DNA of 49,018 bases from Deltaproteobacteria bacterium. Its GTDB lineage: Bacteria; Desulfobacterota; RBG-13-43-22. Shown here piece by piece: positions 1 through 48,298 of the stretch. The notes below the pieces were generated by a model. The model made no database searches and had not been told where the DNA came from. It was given only the letters and a program-made list of their open reading frames with translations. Each line of letters begins with the position of its first letter. Within the stretch, counting starts at the first letter, position 1. The DNA lies in assembly GCA_016219225.1 (NCBI GenBank), contig JACRBX010000039.1, forward strand, positions 1 to 49,018, given 5' to 3'. Position numbers and translations under genes: made by a program.

Positions 1-1809
1 CAGCCTGCCGGACTGGAGATAGGAAACCAGTCTGCCGCTTTCGACCGTGAATTTACAAAACCGGTCGAGGCCGCCGTCGATGATCTGCTGATCCGTACGG
101 GTAAAGGGATCGGCAAAAGTCCGATAGATGACCAAATTTAAAATGATCCGATAGAAATGGTCCAGGTACCAGCGCTCGGCCAGGAAATCCCGAAGCCTGG
201 GAAGGCGTTCAGCCAGGCCCAACCGGGGGGACTCTTTGCGGCCGAATTCGATCCAGGCCAGGGCCACAGCCGAAAGGACCAGGGCCAGGGAGACATAGGT
301 GATCCATCCCCGCTTTTCTCCGGCGGTTGGTTGATCCGACAGGAAATCCTTTAATAAGGGTTCAATAAATCCCGCCGTCAGTATAAAGGCTGCCAGGATG
401 ATGAGGGGAATGGTCATGGTCCAGTAGAGCCTGTTTCCCGGTCGTTTCTCGTAAAGGTCTTGCCGGTCTATTTTTTGAGGGAATAGGATAATAAAGATGG
501 GCCGGAAGGTATAGTAAGGCGTCAGAAAGAGGCCCAGGAATCCGGCGATAAGCCAAAAGGGATTCTTCAAATCGGACAGAGTAGCCAGGATGGCCTCTTT
601 ACTGAAAAATCCGGCCAGGGGGGGGAGGCCGGAAAGGCTGGCCCCGGCCAGGACAAGACAGATCATGGGGATTTTCATTTCCCGTCCGGAACGTCGGCCG
701 ATTTCGAAGAGGTCATTGGTCTTATAATAGTGGACCCAGATGCCGGATCAGAGAAAGAGCAGGGCCTTAAAACCGGCATGAGTAGTCAGATGAAAGAGCC
801 CTGAAAAATATCCCCCGGCACTGAGGGCCATAATCATCATTCCCAACTGACTGATGGTGGAATAGGCCCAGACCTTCTTGATATCCCGTTCCACAAGGGC
901 CATGGAGGAAGCCATCAGCATGGTGAGGGTGCCGGTGGCCAGGAAGATGGACAGGGCCGTCTCGGAATGGCTCAGAAAAGGAAAAAGTCTGGCCAGAAGG
1001 TAGACCCCGGCAGCCACCATGGTGGCTGAATGGAGCAAGGCACTGACCGGTGTCGGCCCTTCCATGGCTTCCGGCAGCCAGGTCAGCAAGGGGAATTGGG
1101 CGCTCTTGCCCACGATTCCGCCGAAAATCAGAAGGGCCGCCAGGGTCAGAAGCCCCGGGGACATGGCGGGGATGGCCTCGGCCTTGTTCATTTCCAGGAT
1201 ATTTAAATTACCAAAGTTAATCAGAATCATCAGGAGGCCGAGAAAAAAGGCCGTGTCGCCGAGCCGGGTCATGACAAAGGCCTTTTTCCCGGCCTGGGTG
1301 GCGCTGAACTTCTCATACCAAAAACCGATTAACAGGTAGGAGCAAAGACCGACCAGCTCCCAAAAGACGTAGAGTTGAAGTAAGGAAGAGGAAAGAACCA
1401 GGGCCATCATGGCCCCGGCAAAAAGGGACTGGAAGGCATAATAGCGGGCGAATCCCGGATCTCCGGCCATGTAGCCCAGCGAATAGATCTGGACCAGGAA
1501 ACTGATCGCGGCCACAACCAGGAGCATGAGCAGGCTGGTCGGATCCAATAAAAACCCAAAAGGGATGGAGATATCCCCGGTCACCAGCCACCTTCCGGCA
1601 AATTGGACGGGATGCTCCAGGGACCGGAGGCTGATGAGCAGAAAAAGGGCGTTTGTCAGGGAAAGGGATACGGCTCCGATGGATAGGGCCGCAGAAATCC
1701 TGGGACAGGAAGGGGTGAAGACCATGATCCAGGCAAAAGCCAGGAAAGGGATGATGACCGCCGTCCAGGCTGCCAGGAGATTCGGGTCTTGGAATAAAGT
1801 CGAGATCAT
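1..1809 (-). CDS. nuoL: NADH-quinone oxidoreductase subunit L (NuoL), in-frame TGA at codon 354, truncated by window edge
   Basis: NuoL is the largest antiporter-like membrane subunit of complex I and carries part of the proton pathway. The first 353 residues are a typical NuoL: several hydrophobic helices, then the conserved antiporter core with GPTPVSALLHSATMVAAGVYL and THAGFKALLFL. Directly after KALLFL the frame meets TGA (positions 748-750). The same frame then continues without another stop for 249 codons to base 1, reading SGIWVHYYKTNDLFEIG, LAGASLSGLPPLAGFFSKE and further membrane helices, exactly what NuoL should contain. So this is one gene with an internal TGA, not two genes. Gly, Ala or Cys normally follows KALLFL, so one base change (GGA or TGC/TGT to TGA) would explain it. 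Alternatives are a consensus error, a pseudogene or, less likely, selenocysteine. Gap to nuoK is 6 nt. Confidence 0.9.
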
Positions 1810-3752: not shown

Positions 3753-6700
3753 ATGACCGACCCGACAAAACCAAATGATCATGAGAAGCGGGCCATCTGC
3801 GGCATCTGCTCTGCCGGCTGCTGGGTCATCGTCACTTACAATGAGGCCGGTCGGATCAAGACCGTCCGGGCCGATGAAACCTCGCCGTTAGGGGCTATTT
3901 GTAAGGTCGGTGAGCACTCTGCGGAAATCGTCTATTCCCAGGATCGGCTGCTTTACCCCTTAAAGCGTAAAGGTCCCAAAGGGACTTATAACTTCGAGCG
4001 GATAACCTGGGATGAAGCTTACGAGACCATCGTTGGAAGGCTCCAGTCCATTAAGGCCGAATCAGGGCCGGAGGCCACGGCCATCTACACCGGCAGCGGG
4101 AGTTTTGAACTGGCCTTCTGCGACATGTTTCAACCGAAAGACGTGGCCATTTCCTCGGCCGCCAGCGTCCTGTTTCCCTTCGGCTCCCCCAACACCCTCG
4201 GAGTGGGTGCCCTTTGCTATGTGGCCTTTGCCATGATCGCCCCCCATGTGACCATGGGTCGCATGTTCATGAACATGTTTTCTGATATTGAGCAGGCCGG
4301 GCTCATCGTCATTTGGGGTAAAAATCCGGCCGCCCATTGTCCGCCCCATGACTTCCATCGAATCCAGGAGGCCTGCCGACGGGGTGCAAAGTTAGTGGTT
4401 ATCGATCCCAGGAAAACGTCCCTGGCCAAGTCCTTCAATTCCCAGTGGATACCGATCCGGCCCGGTACGGACGGGGCCCTGGCCCTGGGAATGTGTCAGG
4501 TCATCATCGAAGAGGATCTCTACGAGGGAGACTTTATCAGGAACTGGACCGTCGGGTTTGAACCCTTCGCCCAATATGTTCAACACTTCCGGCCGGAGGT
4601 CGTCGAGCATATCACCGGGGTTCCGGCTGAGACGGTCCGGTCTCTGGCCCGGCGGATCAGCACCACCGACGGCGTTTCTCCGGTGATGTACAGCGGCCTG
4701 GAATACAGCGACGGGGCCGTTTCCGCCATCCGGGCGACACTGGTCCTATGGGCCCTGGCCGGCCAGCTCGACGTGCCCGGCGGGTCCTGCTTCAGTATGT
4801 CCCAAAATCAGTTTCCGATTAATCGGGAAGGACTCATTCCCAACCCCAATGCGCAAAAGGCCGCAGGCTATAATAACTTCCCCATCTACACCAGGTATCG
4901 GGGCGAGTTCCACGCCAATATCCTGCCGGAGGCGGTGCTGAAAAAAAAGCCTTATCCCATCCGATTGCTCCTCAGTCTGGGGGCTTCGATGATCACCTCC
5001 TGGCCCCAATCGGAGATCTGGCGAAAGACCCTTGGCGCCCTGGATTTCCTGGTCTGTATCGACCGCCAGCTTACCGCCGATATGGCCTACGCAGACATCA
5101 TCCTACCGGCCGCTACGTATTACGAAATCGAATCCTACATGCGTTACGGCCCTATCTACCGGATCAGGGAACCGGTGATCCCCCCGGTCGGAGAGGCCCG
5201 GAGCGATTTCTTTATCCTCTCCGAACTGGCCCGGCGTCTGGGATACGGCCATCTCTATCCCCAGACTCCGGTCGAACTTTTGGATCGATCCCTCGGGGGG
5301 TCGGGATTTACCCTGGAAGAGGTCCGTCAGGCCGGCGGGCTCGTCAAAGTCCCAACGGTAATGATGGAGTATAAAAAATGGGAAAAGGGCTTGCTCCGGG
5401 AAGACGGACAGACCGGTTTTGAGACGCCTTCGGGCAAGTTTGAAATTGCCTCTTCTATCCTGGAGGAACATGGTTATGATGCCTTGCCGATTTATGTGGA
5501 ACCCGGAGAAAGTCCGCACTCGCAGCCGGAACTGGCCAAAGAGTTCCCCCTGGTTTTCAACTCCGGGGCCCGTTCCAGGGTGGATATCCACACCCTCCAT
5601 CAAACCATCCCGGCCCTGATGGAAGAAAGGCCGGTCCCGACGGTGATGATCAATACCGCCGATGCCCGGGTTCGGGGTATTCAAAACGGCGATGAGGTCC
5701 ATCTTAAGACCAGGCGCGGTCAGATACGCCTGTACGCACTGGTCACCGACGACATAGTGTCCGGGGCCGTCGAGGCCAGTGCCATGGGGGGCGGGGCCTT
5801 GGGTTCTAAAGCCTGGCAGCAGGCTTGCGTCAATGACTTGACCGACCTGGCCCGCTTTGATCCGATTTCCGGCTTTCCTGTTTACAAGGCCTTGCTCTGT
5901 GAGGTATCCAAGATTTCGGAAGGAAAAAAAGTCCGGACCGGCGGCAGGGGTGAGTATACTTTTGATAGACCTCCGAAACCGTCGAAGGTTACCAGGCCCA
6001 TCTATTTGGATCATAATGCTACTACCCCCATGGCCGAGGAGGTCAAGGCCGCCTTGGTTGCATCTATGGATTCTTTCGGTAATCCCTCCAGCCTCTACGC
6101 CCTGGGGAAGGAAACACGACTGAGCCTGGACAAGGCCCGACGGAGCGTGGCTTTACTCCTCAACACCACGGCCCGGCGCATCATTTTCACCGGCGGGGGT
6201 TCGGAGGCCAATAATCTGGCCATCAAAGGGGTGGCCTTGGCTGACGGGCGGACCCGGAAACATATCATCACCAGCACAGTCGAACACCCTTCAGTGCTAA
6301 ACACCTGCCGTTGGCTGGAAAAGCAGGCCTTCGTCCTGACCCTTCTGCCGGTCGACGGCCAGGGGCTGGTGGACCCCGGAGACCTTAGAAAGGCGATTAC
6401 GGAAAAGACCTGTCTGGTCAGTATAATGCTGGCCAATAACGAGACCGGTTCCATCCAGCCCATTGCCGAATTAGCCGGGATCGCCCGGGAGCAGGGGGTG
6501 CCCTTTCATACCGATGCGGTCCAGGCATTGGGTAAACTGCCCGTTGATGTAGAACGACTGGGTGTGGACCTGCTGACCTTTTCCGGGCATAAGTTTTATG
6601 GGCCCAAGGGTGTGGGTGTTCTCTATGTGCGCAAGGGGATGATGCTCGACCCCCTGATCGCCGGAGGCCATCAGGAGCAGGGATTCCGGGCCGGGACCGA

Positions 6701-7148
6701 GAACATTTTGGGGATCATCGGGCTGGGCCGGGCAGCGGAACTGGCCATCGACAATTTCTCGAAAATGAACCGTGTGCAAGAGCTGCGGGACAGACTGCAT
6801 CAAGGCATTTTGGAAGTGGTTCCCCAGGCCCGGCTGAATGGCCATCCCCGGGAACGGCTGCCCAACACCTTAAACCTGACACTTCCCGGCATCCGGGGAG
6901 AGTCGCTGGTCCTGGCCCTTGACCGGAAAGGAATCGCCATTTCATCGGGGTCTGCCTGCCAGTCGGGTTTTCCCGAGCCATCAAAGGCCTTGACGGCCAT
7001 GGGGCTTACGGTAGAAGAGGCCCATGGCGCGGTCCGCTTTTCTCTCGGCCTCGGCAATACGGAGGAAGAGATCGACCGGACCATCATGGCTATTGATCAG
7101 GTCATTCGTGAAACCAATGAAGTCATCCGGTTCGTTTCCTGCAGATAG
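3753..7148 (+). CDS. Molybdopterin oxidoreductase-cysteine desulfurase fusion; probable metallopterin-dependent ergothioneine synthase (Mes-like)
   Basis: A 1131-residue fusion. Residues 1 to about 735 are a DMSO-reductase-family bis-MGD enzyme. The N-terminal [4Fe-4S] motif uses C16, C19, C23 and C50; FPFGSPNTLGVGALC places C155 as probable Mo/W ligand; a C-terminal molydopterin-dinucleotide-binding domain follows around 590-715. Residues 749-1131 are a complete NifS/IscS-type cysteine desulfurase: LDHNATTP, GSEANN, EHPSVLN, NNETGSIQP, SGHKFYGPKG with PLP lysine K947, RAGTEN, and SSGSACQSG with catalytic C1069. The next gene, 27 nt downstream, is egtD, so hercynine is the likely substrate. 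I infer that cysteine sulfur is passed as persulfide to the metal domain and inserted at C2 of the hercynine imidazole, giving ergothioneine. I recall such an enzyme (Mes) reported from Caldithrix abyssi but cannot verify it here. A formate-dehydrogenase-like role is the alternative. Confidence 0.82.
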   Translation: MTDPTKPNDHEKRAICGICSAGCWVIVTYNEAGRIKTVRADETSPLGAICKVGEHSAEIVYSQDRLLYPLKRKGPKGTYNFERITWDEAYETIVGRLQSIKAESGPEATAIYTGSGSFELAFCDMFQPKDVAISSAASVLFPFGSPNTLGVGALCYVAFAMIAPHVTMGRMFMNMFSDIEQAGLIVIWGKNPAAHCPPHDFHRIQEACRRGAKLVVIDPRKTSLAKSFNSQWIPIRPGTDGALALGMCQVIIEEDLYEGDFIRNWTVGFEPFAQYVQHFRPEVVEHITGVPAETVRSLARRISTTDGVSPVMYSGLEYSDGAVSAIRATLVLWALAGQLDVPGGSCFSMSQNQFPINREGLIPNPNAQKAAGYNNFPIYTRYRGEFHANILPEAVLKKKPYPIRLLLSLGASMITSWPQSEIWRKTLGALDFLVCIDRQLTADMAYADIILPAATYYEIESYMRYGPIYRIREPVIPPVGEARSDFFILSELARRLGYGHLYPQTPVELLDRSLGGSGFTLEEVRQAGGLVKVPTVMMEYKKWEKGLLREDGQTGFETPSGKFEIASSILEEHGYDALPIYVEPGESPHSQPELAKEFPLVFNSGARSRVDIHTLHQTIPALMEERPVPTVMINTADARVRGIQNGDEVHLKTRRGQIRLYALVTDDIVSGAVEASAMGGGALGSKAWQQACVNDLTDLARFDPISGFPVYKALLCEVSKISEGKKVRTGGRGEYTFDRPPKPSKVTRPIYLDHNATTPMAEEVKAALVASMDSFGNPSSLYALGKETRLSLDKARRSVALLLNTTARRIIFTGGGSEANNLAIKGVALADGRTRKHIITSTVEHPSVLNTCRWLEKQAFVLTLLPVDGQGLVDPGDLRKAITEKTCLVSIMLANNETGSIQPIAELAGIAREQGVPFHTDAVQALGKLPVDVERLGVDLLTFSGHKFYGPKGVGVLYVRKGMMLDPLIAGGHQEQGFRAGTENILGIIGLGRAAELAIDNFSKMNRVQELRDRLHQGILEVVPQARLNGHPRERLPNTLNLTLPGIRGESLVLALDRKGIAISSGSACQSGFPEPSKALTAMGLTVEEAHGAVRFSLGLGNTEEEIDRTIMAIDQVIRETNEVIRFVSCR

Positions 7149-7175: not shown

Positions 7176-8186
7176 GTGAACCATCCAACTTTGTCCGCGA
7201 TTGAAGATTTTTTGCAAGAATCGATAACCGAAATAAATAATCGTCCGAAGGGACCTTATGGGATCAATGGTGTCGCGGACCTGGCTGCAGGTCTGACGGC
7301 CCGGCAGAGATACATCCCCTGCAAATATTTTTATGATGCCCAAGGGTCCAGGCTTTTCGAAGCCATCTGCAGGCTTCCGGAATATTATCCAACCCGAACG
7401 GAAATGGGCCTTCTCAAAGAGGTTGCCCCTGGGCTGGCCGGGACCTTGAACCACAAAGACCTGGTCGAACTCGGTTCCGGGGCCGATCGGAAGATAGGCA
7501 TCCTGCTCCGGGCAACAACCCAGGATACCCGGTCCACCCTGCGTTATATCCCGGTGGACATCAGCGATTCGGCGGTCCTTAATTCTTCTCTTAATCTGAA
7601 AACCCGTTTCCCGGAGTTAAAGGTAAAAGGGCTCGTGGCCGATTTTACTTCCCAACTGAAACCGCTTCCTACGGATAGGCCGACCATGTTCCTTTTCCTG
7701 GGAAGCACAATCGGCAATTTTGACGATGTCGAAAGCGTCGTCTTCCTACGGAATATGGCGGCCGTCATGAAACCGGAGGATACCATGCTGATCGGTTTCG
7801 ATATGCTCAAGCCCCTTCCGCTCATCGAGGCAGCTTATAATGATACAAGGGGAGTCACCGCTGCATTTAACAAGAATATCCTGAGGGCAGTCAATAAGGA
7901 ATTGCAGGCCCTTTTCGATCCTTCCTGCTTCGACCATTTGGCCTTCTTTAATGAAAACCACAGCCGGATAGAAATGCACCTGAAAGCCAATCAGGATGTG
8001 GCGGTCAGGATTGACGCACTCAATATGACCCTTGAGATTAAAGAAGGCGAAACCCTTCACACGGAAAACTCACGGAAATTCACCAGGGAAAGTATCGAGT
8101 GGATGGCCGGCCTGGCCGGCTTGACCATTCACGACTGGCGCCAGGATTCCAGTGGGTGGTTTTCTCTGGTGTCCATGGGGTTGTAA
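7176..8186 (+). CDS. egtD: L-histidine N-alpha-methyltransferase (EgtD), hercynine synthase
   Basis: SAM-dependent trimethylation of histidine to hercynine, the first step to ergothioneine. The start is GTG at 7176 with AGGGAG nine bases upstream. 336 residues is close to the family length (about 320). EgtD signatures are present: YFYDAQGSRLFEAICRLPEYYPTRTE near residues 50-75, the SAM-binding ELGSGADRK (from E98), YIPVDISDSAV, and FLGSTIGNF. The last third carries a C-terminal SGWFSLVSMGL. Only 27 nt separate it from the fusion gene, so they are probably cotranscribed. No egtB (oxygen-dependent sulfoxide synthase) or egtA/C/E lies nearby, which fits an anaerobic route. Anaerobic EanA proteins belong to the same methyltransferase family. 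Confidence 0.93.
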   Translation: MNHPTLSAIEDFLQESITEINNRPKGPYGINGVADLAAGLTARQRYIPCKYFYDAQGSRLFEAICRLPEYYPTRTEMGLLKEVAPGLAGTLNHKDLVELGSGADRKIGILLRATTQDTRSTLRYIPVDISDSAVLNSSLNLKTRFPELKVKGLVADFTSQLKPLPTDRPTMFLFLGSTIGNFDDVESVVFLRNMAAVMKPEDTMLIGFDMLKPLPLIEAAYNDTRGVTAAFNKNILRAVNKELQALFDPSCFDHLAFFNENHSRIEMHLKANQDVAVRIDALNMTLEIKEGETLHTENSRKFTRESIEWMAGLAGLTIHDWRQDSSGWFSLVSMGL

Positions 8187-45773: not shown

Positions 45774-46096
45774 TTGAGAAGAACCCGATCAACCCTTCAC
45801 GGATACGCAAGATCGCCGGCAGTTTCGCTTTTATCGAACACCGCTTCCGATACTTTATCAAAACCCTGACCCATCAGGAGCTTTTACTGTATCTCTTTCT
45901 GGTCTTAGCCGCTGATAAACAAGGACTTTCCTATTATACCGCGGATAGCATCTGCTCCTGCCTGAAGATCAGTCTGAAGCAATATCTGAAAGCCCGGCAA
46001 TCGTTGATCCGAAAGGACCTGATCGCTTTCGATGGCCAGTTATTCCAGGTCCTTTCATTACCTTTTTTTACACCATGGAGAGGTCTCTATGATTGA
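45770..46096 (+). CDS. IS21-associated small HTH-like protein
   Basis: 108 residues, ATGA overlap with the previous gene. RYFIKTLTHQELLLYLFLVLAADKQGLSYYTADSICSCLKISLKQYLKARQSLIRKDLIAFDGQLFQVLSLP looks like a winged-helix DNA-binding domain. Its stop lies 8 nt inside istA. It may control the transposase genes. Not a family that I can name. Confidence 0.72.
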   Translation: MIEKNPINPSRIRKIAGSFAFIEHRFRYFIKTLTHQELLLYLFLVLAADKQGLSYYTADSICSCLKISLKQYLKARQSLIRKDLIAFDGQLFQVLSLPFFTPWRGLYD

Positions 46097-47555
46097 TCAC
46101 CGTACTATCTTCGAGATCCACCGTCTGTCTCATGAAGGCTATGGTCTTCGTAAAATCGCCCGGACCCTCAAACTCAGCCGGGACAGTGTCAAACGATATC
46201 GGGATAATCCGAATCCACCCAGACCGGTAATAGTACGCACCAGCAAGCTGGATCCGTTTAAAAACGAGATCCAAAAGTATTTAGAGCAAGACCCCTCGGT
46301 CAGCGGTGCGGTTCTGTATCAACGCTTAAAGCCCCAAGGCTATGCCGGAGGCAGGTCTATTCTGGGGGAGTACTTACAACAGATCAGACCCAAGAAAAAA
46401 CGAGCCTATATCCGCTTCGAATCGCCTCCAGGGGAACAGTTCCAGATCGACTGGGGCCACTTCGGTTCTTTGACTTACGGGAAGACCCCCCGAAAGCTCT
46501 ACTGTTTGGCGGTCATCGAGGCCCATAGTCGGATGCTTTACGCCGAGTTCACCCACTCTCAGAAACAAGAGGCCCTCCATCAGGGTTTACTTAATGCCTT
46601 TCGTTTCCTCCAAGGCACCCCCAGGGAAATCGTCACCGATAATATGCTCACCGCTGTCTTAGAGAGGGAAGGCTCTTTAGTCCGTTTTAATGAAGCTTTC
46701 CTGGATTTCTTACGACCCTTCCGGATCACCCCTAAGGCCTGTCACCCCTATCAACCCCACGAAAAAGGTAAGATCGAAAAAGGGGGCATCCATTACCTCC
46801 GTCATAACTTCTGGCCCCTCAGAACCTTTACCGATCTTTTCGATATCAATCGCCAGCTATGGCACTGGTTGGATACCCAGGCGAATATCCGGCTCCACGG
46901 TACTACCGGCGAAAGGCCAGTCGATCGTTTCAACCCCCAGGCTCTTCAACCCTTGCCCGAGTTTACCCCCGACTGCCGGGAAACCCTCTCGGTTAAGGTA
47001 CACTCCGACTTCGCCATCCGTTTCGACAGCAACTTTTACTCCGTCCCTCCCTGGGCCATCGGTAAAACCGTCATCCTCAAGGCCGATTACCAAACCATCA
47101 CTATCTATCTTCACGAAAAAACTCTGGCTATCCATACCCGTTGTTGGGAGAAAAAACAACGCCTGGAACTTCCGGCCCATCGCGAAGCCGCTTTTAAGCG
47201 TCGGCCTCAGGAATGGCTGGCTACTGAGGTCTCCGCCTTTATCTCCTTAGGCGAAGAGGCCAAGGCCTTTCTGGAGGGTCTGGCCCACAGCGGTCAGCCC
47301 ATTAAAAAAAACCTGGCCAAACTCCTGGCTTTAAAAGACCGCTATGGAACCCCTTTATTGATCCAGGCCCTTAAACGGGCCATGATCCACAAGGCCTATG
47401 GCGCCCACTATGTGGAAAACATCCTCCATCAGGAAACGTCTCCTAAACAGGATCACCCCCCGGTCCAACTCAAACGCCAGGATTTAAACCGTATCCGCCT
47501 GGAGGAGCCCCTCCTGGCCGAGTATGATGCTTATATCCTCAAACGGAAGGACTAA
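46089..47555 (+). CDS. istA: IS21-family transposase IstA
   Basis: 488 residues from the ATG at 46089, which has GGAGAGG upstream and overlaps the previous stop. N-terminal HTH (IFEIHRLSHEGYGLRKIARTLKLSRDSVKRY), then an RNase H-type DDE core with D121 (FQIDWGHFG), D184 (IVTDNML) and E230 (KGKIEKGG). The C-terminal half is normal for IstA. Works with IstB. Looks intact. Confidence 0.93.
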   Translation: MIDHRTIFEIHRLSHEGYGLRKIARTLKLSRDSVKRYRDNPNPPRPVIVRTSKLDPFKNEIQKYLEQDPSVSGAVLYQRLKPQGYAGGRSILGEYLQQIRPKKKRAYIRFESPPGEQFQIDWGHFGSLTYGKTPRKLYCLAVIEAHSRMLYAEFTHSQKQEALHQGLLNAFRFLQGTPREIVTDNMLTAVLEREGSLVRFNEAFLDFLRPFRITPKACHPYQPHEKGKIEKGGIHYLRHNFWPLRTFTDLFDINRQLWHWLDTQANIRLHGTTGERPVDRFNPQALQPLPEFTPDCRETLSVKVHSDFAIRFDSNFYSVPPWAIGKTVILKADYQTITIYLHEKTLAIHTRCWEKKQRLELPAHREAAFKRRPQEWLATEVSAFISLGEEAKAFLEGLAHSGQPIKKNLAKLLALKDRYGTPLLIQALKRAMIHKAYGAHYVENILHQETSPKQDHPPVQLKRQDLNRIRLEEPLLAEYDAYILKRKD

Positions 47556-47557
47556 TC

Positions 47558-48298
47558 ATGTCTGACTTGGAAACGCTTAAAGATAAACTGATCCAACTCC
47601 GTCTAAAAACCATGGCCCAACAACTGGACTCCGTCCTGGATCAGGCCGCTCAAAAAAATCTCAACCTGCCGGCAGTCTTGAACCGTCTGGCCGATTACGA
47701 ACTGGAGGCCCGTCGCCAGACGGCCATTGCCCTTAAGTTCCGTCAATCCCAATTAAGTGATAAACCTACGATTGACCAGTTTGACTTCCACCACCATAAG
47801 TCCCGGCTTGATCAGAAAACCCTCATCCTGAACTTATTCTCCCTCGATTTTATCTCCAAGCATCAGGATATCATCCTCATCGGCAATCCCGGTACCGGTA
47901 AAACCTTCCTGGCCAAAGCCTTAGTCTTTGCCGCCTGTAATGCCAATATCAAGTGTCTCTTTACCAATACCATGGATATGATCAATCACCTCATTGCCGC
48001 TGAAGCCGATCACTCTTTACTTAAAATGCTTCACTTTTATCAATCTCCGGACCTCTTAGTCTGTGACGAACTCGGTTATCTGTCTCTCGGCCCCCAGGGC
48101 TCGCACCTTTTCTTCCAGGTCATCAGTCAAAGGCATGCGGTTAAATCAACTCTGTTGACAACCAATTTGCCCTTTACTGACTGGGGAAAGGTCTTCGATT
48201 CCACCCCGGTGGCCACGGCTATCGCTGACCGTCTCGTTCATAACTCCGAGGTCCTTATCCTGGAAGGACCAAGCTATCGAAGAAAAAATAAATCCTAA
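47558..48298 (+). CDS. istB: IS21-family helper ATPase IstB
   Basis: 246 residues, DnaC/DnaA-like AAA+ ATPase. Walker A GNPGTGKT (109-116), Walker B LLVCDELGYL, then STLLTTNLPFTDWGKVF and the C-terminal ATAIADRLVHNSEVLILEGPSYR, typical of IstB. Begins 2 nt after istA. It selects the target DNA and activates IstA. Confidence 0.93.
   Translation: MSDLETLKDKLIQLRLKTMAQQLDSVLDQAAQKNLNLPAVLNRLADYELEARRQTAIALKFRQSQLSDKPTIDQFDFHHHKSRLDQKTLILNLFSLDFISKHQDIILIGNPGTGKTFLAKALVFAACNANIKCLFTNTMDMINHLIAAEADHSLLKMLHFYQSPDLLVCDELGYLSLGPQGSHLFFQVISQRHAVKSTLLTTNLPFTDWGKVFDSTPVATAIADRLVHNSEVLILEGPSYRRKNKS

Follow-up and report, generated by a model that had tools for sequence, protein, structure and literature searches.

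The window, by which we mean the whole stretch of 49,018 nucleotides analysed, carries on its plus strand a single unbroken frame of 1131 codons with an ATG start, followed by a frame of 336 codons with a GTG start that begins 27 bases past the stop of the former. We assign these genes as mes and egtD, and the gene and module boundaries are as follows.

3753-7148 (+), mes, metallopterin-dependent ergothioneine synthase (MES), 1131 aa, fusion of a Mo/W module with a cysteine desulfurase
3753-5918 (+), N-module, residues 1-722, Mo/W-bis-MGD module of the DMSO-reductase family (PF00384, PF01568)
5919-5999 (+), inter-module linker, residues 723-749, with residues 731-746 predicted to be disordered
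6000-7145 (+), C-module, residues 750-1131, PLP cysteine desulfurase of the NifS/IscS type (PF00266)
7176-8186 (+), egtD, histidine N-alpha-trimethyltransferase (TIGR03438, 350.2 bits against a cut-off of 290.9; PF10017)

Pfam placed PF00384 at residues 65-494, PF01568 at 606-713 and PF00266 at 750-1109 of the 1131-aa protein. The best PDB sequence match of the N-module is acetylene hydratase 2e7z (E 4.6e-75), with thiosulfate reductase 2vpw also among the best, and the best NCBIfam model of the C-module, TIGR03402, scored below its cut-off. In a fold comparison of the predicted model, the C-module matched human Nfs1 with a Z of 54.3; the listed matches are all desulfurases or related class-V PLP enzymes, a list filled by the C-module and thus uninformative on the N-module. 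NifS/IscS cysteine desulfurases share the fold and the PLP/Cys chemistry with the C-module, whereas the latter is fused and ends in a C-terminal tail, FxxC[RK], that is specific to MES. As 371 relatives were confirmed in the genome collection, chance is excluded. On the upstream side of mes, nuo-like genes lie on the minus strand and run away from it. A NuoL-like gene among the window's frames seems to be split in two, 1-678 and 748-1809 (-), one of them cut by the window start, which appears to reflect a frameshift or an assembly error.

Conservation was assessed on the window protein and the best 80 of the 371 relatives (81 rows); setting aside 5 copies with a broken frame, 8 at contig edges and 5 lacking the desulfurase left 63 intact fusions. 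The residues considered are the following.

3798-3902 (+, first to last codon), Fe4S4 cysteines C16, C19, C23 and C50, in 63/63 intact fusions
4215-4217 (+), C155, predicted to be the only protein ligand of Mo/W (C153 in CaMES), in 63/63
6591-6593 (+), K947, PLP Schiff-base lysine (K952 in CaMES), in 63/63
6957-6959 (+), C1069, first persulfide cysteine (C1074 in CaMES), in 63/63
7026-7028 (+), G1092, at the position of C1097 in CaMES, Cys in 61/63, the window being an exception
7140-7142 (+), C1130, penultimate residue and second relay cysteine (C1135 in CaMES), in 62/63

The original prediction had held that the key residues of both halves (the four cluster cysteines, C155, K947 and C1069) are intact, and each of them is indeed invariant among the intact fusions; it had overlooked C1130 and the adjacent egtD. 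The comparison with CaMES, the MES of Caldithrix abyssi, was made through a MAG labelled Caldithrix abyssi (L085) that encodes a 1136-aa MES with 67% identity to the window protein over the N-module. In this alignment C16/C19/C23/C50/C155/K947/C1069/G1092/C1130 of the window correspond to C14/C17/C21/C48/C153/K952/C1074/C1097/C1135, positions that coincide exactly with the published CaMES numbering, and at the compared N-module positions the two proteins are identical save for residue 20.

CaMES was described in 2022 together with its egtD partner (PMC9516567). According to that paper, for which CaMES was expressed in an E. coli K-12 strain supplied with TMH, the K952A, C1074S, C1135S and C153S exchanges each abolished ergothioneine formation, while C1097S caused only an approximately two-fold loss, C1097 being called strictly conserved there; co-expressed K952A and C153S variants did not complement each other, and sulfur transfer within the same chain was concluded to be obligatory. 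The four residues found essential in CaMES are all kept in the window protein, and the only cysteine missing from it is the dispensable third one. The window protein thus shares with CaMES the two-module layout, all catalytic and relay residues reported there as essential and the egtD partner; it differs in G1092 and in its host lineage, its MES being close to Dehalococcoidia copies.

We therefore read mes-egtD as very probably an oxygen-independent ergothioneine operon in which C1069 and C1130 would relay sulfur to the Mo/W of the same protein, acting as CaMES does. Within this analysis the reading draws on the domains, the intact residues, the operon, the co-inheritance with egtD and the fact that full EgtB was not found. 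EgtD would methylate histidine three times to give trimethylhistidine (TMH), and the C-module would strip sulfur from L-cysteine with the PLP on K947, leaving a persulfide on C1069. From there the sulfur would pass to C1130 on a flexible C-terminal tail, presumably in the order C1069, C1130, metal, and the tail would put sulfur back on the reduced Mo/W that C155 ligates in the N-module. TMH would then pick up the terminal sulfido sulfur to yield ergothioneine; the Mo=S chemistry assumed here, with Mo(VI)=S attacked by TMH, is a tentative proposal in the CaMES paper as well (PMC9516567). An AlphaFold2 model of the full-length monomer, built with no cofactors, has a mean pLDDT of 84.9 and a pTM of 0.64. 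Its pLDDT falls below 50 at residues 152-162 (the loop of the metal ligand C155), 731-746 (linker), 1068-1073 (loop of C1069) and 1129-1131 (tail with C1130), and also at 1-7, 191-196 and 608-613. A mobile C1130 tail would be compatible with a relay but is no proof of one.

Transfer of a persulfide from the built-in desulfurase to the metal site, as originally predicted, is probable in the light of the inactive and non-complementing CaMES variants (PMC9516567); for CaMES it is already published and hence not new here. The prediction had left it undecided whether the desulfurase donates sulfur to the product or to the cofactor. The first role holds and the second does not, at least by analogy: the desulfurase-dead CaMES mutant is reported to still swap sulfur between ergothioneine and TMH (PMC9516567), and the CaMES desulfurase accordingly feeds each turnover instead of cofactor maturation. 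The window's MES, near the Dehalococcoidia copies, is one more member of an enzyme type already described and of an anaerobic ergothioneine route that came to light only recently; existing work largely explains it. Ergothioneine is an antioxidant, which the MES route makes without oxygen by moving sulfur from cysteine onto methylated histidine. The EanB and EgtB pathways share with MES the substrate TMH, the product and EgtD as first step, but EanB is a rhodanese that uses polysulfide and EgtB an O2-dependent iron enzyme, in contrast to a metallopterin enzyme with a desulfurase.

The partnership of mes and egtD was followed in 395 genomes drawn from the phylum of the window. Full-length MES fusions occur in 13 of these, including one with a stop near its end (G078), and one more genome (G042) holds a copy at a contig edge; egtD adjoins all 12 full-length fusions other than the window's (11 downstream, 1 upstream) as well as the contig-edge copy. 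It is present in 14/14 MES genomes as opposed to 0/12 genomes in which a non-fused N-module homologue was the best match. Across the draw, 14 genomes have MES and egtD, 6 have egtD only and 375 have neither (Fisher p 1.9e-21, a value that ignores the kinship of the genomes); p becomes 2.8e-20, with kinship likewise ignored, when genome G211 is counted as MES without egtD. The latter genome carries a frame-broken MES-like fragment at about 2137-3136 of contig C47 (L061), with 77% identity over residues 374-624, which is either a decayed copy or an assembly fault. All six egtD-only genomes have a full-span EgtB match, above the cut-off in G018, G092 and G378 and below it in G056, G197 (in two pieces) and G359. 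By comparison, full EgtB was not found in any of the five fused-MES genomes examined, the window's included, where matches were absent or partial (at most 92 bits). In the wider collection egtD is present in 61/80 loci (best 80 of the 371 relatives). Twelve genomes were checked for the 19 loci without it; eight have egtD elsewhere and four have none anywhere, which MAG gaps or uptake of TMH may explain.

These four genomes, the G211 fragment without egtD and the glycine at 1092 in place of cysteine speak against the ergothioneine reading, and three other functions have to be weighed. Formate dehydrogenases (FDHs) need a desulfurase together with FdhD for sulfuration of their cofactor. This known need, and a match of the N-module to the FDH model TIGR01591 at 252 bits, favour an FDH-like enzyme whose built-in desulfurase would sulfurate its own cofactor at maturation, as the original prediction had framed it. 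The score is, however, far below the cut-off of 666 bits, and the Cys/Sec-His pair of FDHs, aligned to the C-H of 7qv7 and 7bkb, is C155-Y156 in the window. The FdhD part of the framing finds no support either, since fdhD is found on another contig of the genome (269 bits); with its own fdhD, the genome need not depend on MES for FDH maturation. The two systems have the bis-MGD family and desulfurase-derived sulfur in common, but sulfur enters FDH once at maturation, at a Cys-His site, and is used by MES in each turnover, at Cys-Tyr. Together with the linkage to egtD and, in CaMES, a metal site that is active without the desulfurase (PMC9516567), this makes the maturation reading extremely improbable; a formate dehydrogenase as such is rejected because of the Cys-Tyr residues and the egtD linkage, and the 'formate dehydrogenase' label to be expected for 3753-7148 is hereby corrected.

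The best PDB matches 2e7z and 2vpw could point to a Mo/W enzyme with the desulfurase as a mere appendage, either a hydratase like acetylene hydratase or a sulfur reductase like thiosulfate or polysulfide reductase. Acetylene hydratase is the closest solved relative of the N-module by sequence and shares the 4Fe4S cluster and the Cys metal ligand, but it has no desulfurase, and the Asp of its CxxCD motif, which is catalytic, is replaced by Ser20 in the alignment of the window protein to 2e7z. No co-directional gene for an electron-transfer subunit lies beside mes among the ORFs of the window, and the egtD partner and its co-inheritance argue against this reading as well, which we regard as hardly credible; acetylene hydratase itself is rejected because of Ser20 and the egtD linkage. 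A MES-fold enzyme that sulfurates a congener, i.e. another methylated histidine or imidazole rather than TMH, is conceivable insofar as the N-module is only 67% identical to that of L085. Since EgtD scores over the equivalog cut-off and residue 20 is the sole difference from L085 at the compared positions, we deem it very unlikely.

Against the background of ergothioneine synthesis by fused MES, five of the 80 loci (best 80 of the 371 relatives) are of particular interest, as they encode a full N-module with no desulfurase in the locus, the frame ending well inside the contig. These are L093 and L096 (Methanophagales, ANME-1), L094, L109 (a Nitrospirae MAG) and L101 (a Deltaproteobacteria MAG); L094 is titled Methanomicrobiales, yet was grouped with genomes of the order of L093. 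In the ANME-1 and Nitrospirae copies the desulfurase and both relay cysteines are absent, whereas the metal-site cysteines are kept. At the compared N-module positions L093 and L101 depart from L085 solely at residue 24, which is variable, and L109 does so at 24, 124, 278 and 462. All five genomes have egtD, which directly follows the gene in L093, L094, L096 and L109; in the genome of L101 (G399) it lies on another contig beside a full EgtB and scores 283 bits, under the cut-off, and L101 may be a relic. The N-module tree nests the five copies inside fused MES and calls for three separate changes, read as losses of the desulfurase, on starred branches. An assembly error is unlikely for the three ANME-1 copies, which share 97% identity and were recovered from different MAGs; L109 and L101 stem from one MAG each.

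A detached MES-type desulfurase was not found when the PF00266 matches in the five MAGs, which are possibly incomplete, were compared with the C-module. Genomes G395 and G397 contain a full-length but distant enzyme (29% identity) and G396 a fragment, and the matches in G398 and G399 are NifS/IscS-like with 45-51% identity to the C-module, plus one of 29%. The FxxC[RK] tail was seen in none of the 13 PF00266-protein ends inspected in these genomes. Desulfurase-less MES is rare: 395 Nitrospirota genomes gave 12 MES matches, comprising 1 desulfurase-less, 10 of fused length and 1 short, and 3 of the 5 MES matches in 392 archaeal genomes are desulfurase-less. The 53 genomes of the ANME-1 order gave 4 matches, one of them a fragment.

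Our search of a limited collection of literature found no published account of desulfurase-less MES, and its occurrence in ANME-1 and in a Nitrospirae MAG, with L101 as a weaker third case, is possibly new to the literature. As these natural homologues show, fused MES is not universal, which suggests that some hosts can do without the fused donor. Unless the desulfurase-less copies are inactive, the obligatory same-chain transfer concluded for CaMES may not be valid family-wide, and such copies beside egtD lend themselves to testing whether it is dictated by the chemistry or peculiar to one protein. The 2022 paper assigned no TMH-sulfurising enzyme to roughly 25 of about 80 genomes (PMC9516567), a gap that desulfurase-less MES could fill in part.

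Six further homologues (L044-L049, e.g. L044:8686-11861) fall outside the MES clade of the N-module tree as a sister clade, with 48-51% identity to the N-module and no desulfurase. The Fe-S cysteines and the cysteine that ligates the metal are conserved in them, but a block of positions around the latter departs from MES; a genome-wide search for egtD found none in their genomes. In 6/6 the gene ahead of that for the Mo-enzyme spans 313-318 codons and encodes a SAM methyltransferase whose N-terminus resembles Trm112. Five of the six were run against Pfam and all matched Trm112p with E under 0.001, only two of them over the cut-off, and that of L049 was recognised by alignment only. The Trm112-like methyltransferase and the Mo-enzyme thus form a conserved two-gene cassette. 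Tentatively, and as a possibility rather than an expectation, we speculate that at least two MES lineages (ANME-1 and the Nitrospirae MAG) lost the desulfurase and relay cysteines and receive the sulfur for ergothioneine in trans (from a separate carrier, sulfide or polysulfide); on this view the sister clade would represent a further metallopterin pathway of sulfur insertion, hitherto undescribed, that acts on a different methylated substrate.

The N-module tree comprises 97 rows and was calculated with a quick IQ-TREE run with SH-aLRT support only. The window MES groups in it with Dehalococcoidia and Bipolaricaulota copies (support 95*), and the closest EgtDs among the best 80 of the 371 loci come from the same lineages, with 61% identity in L063 and L064. 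MES is absent from both same-genus genomes of the phylum draw (G009 and G047). Because the nearest MES relatives also hold the nearest EgtDs, mes and egtD probably moved together, which fits a joint horizontal transfer of the pair. Elsewhere in the window, an IS21-type pair, consisting of a transposase with an rve/Mu-transposase C domain and an IstB ATPase, lies at 46032-48298 (+). MES is also encoded in MAGs titled anammox planctomycetes (L072-L076, L080, L081, L092 and L098), the Scalindua MAG OFTM180 carrying two copies (L073 and L075).
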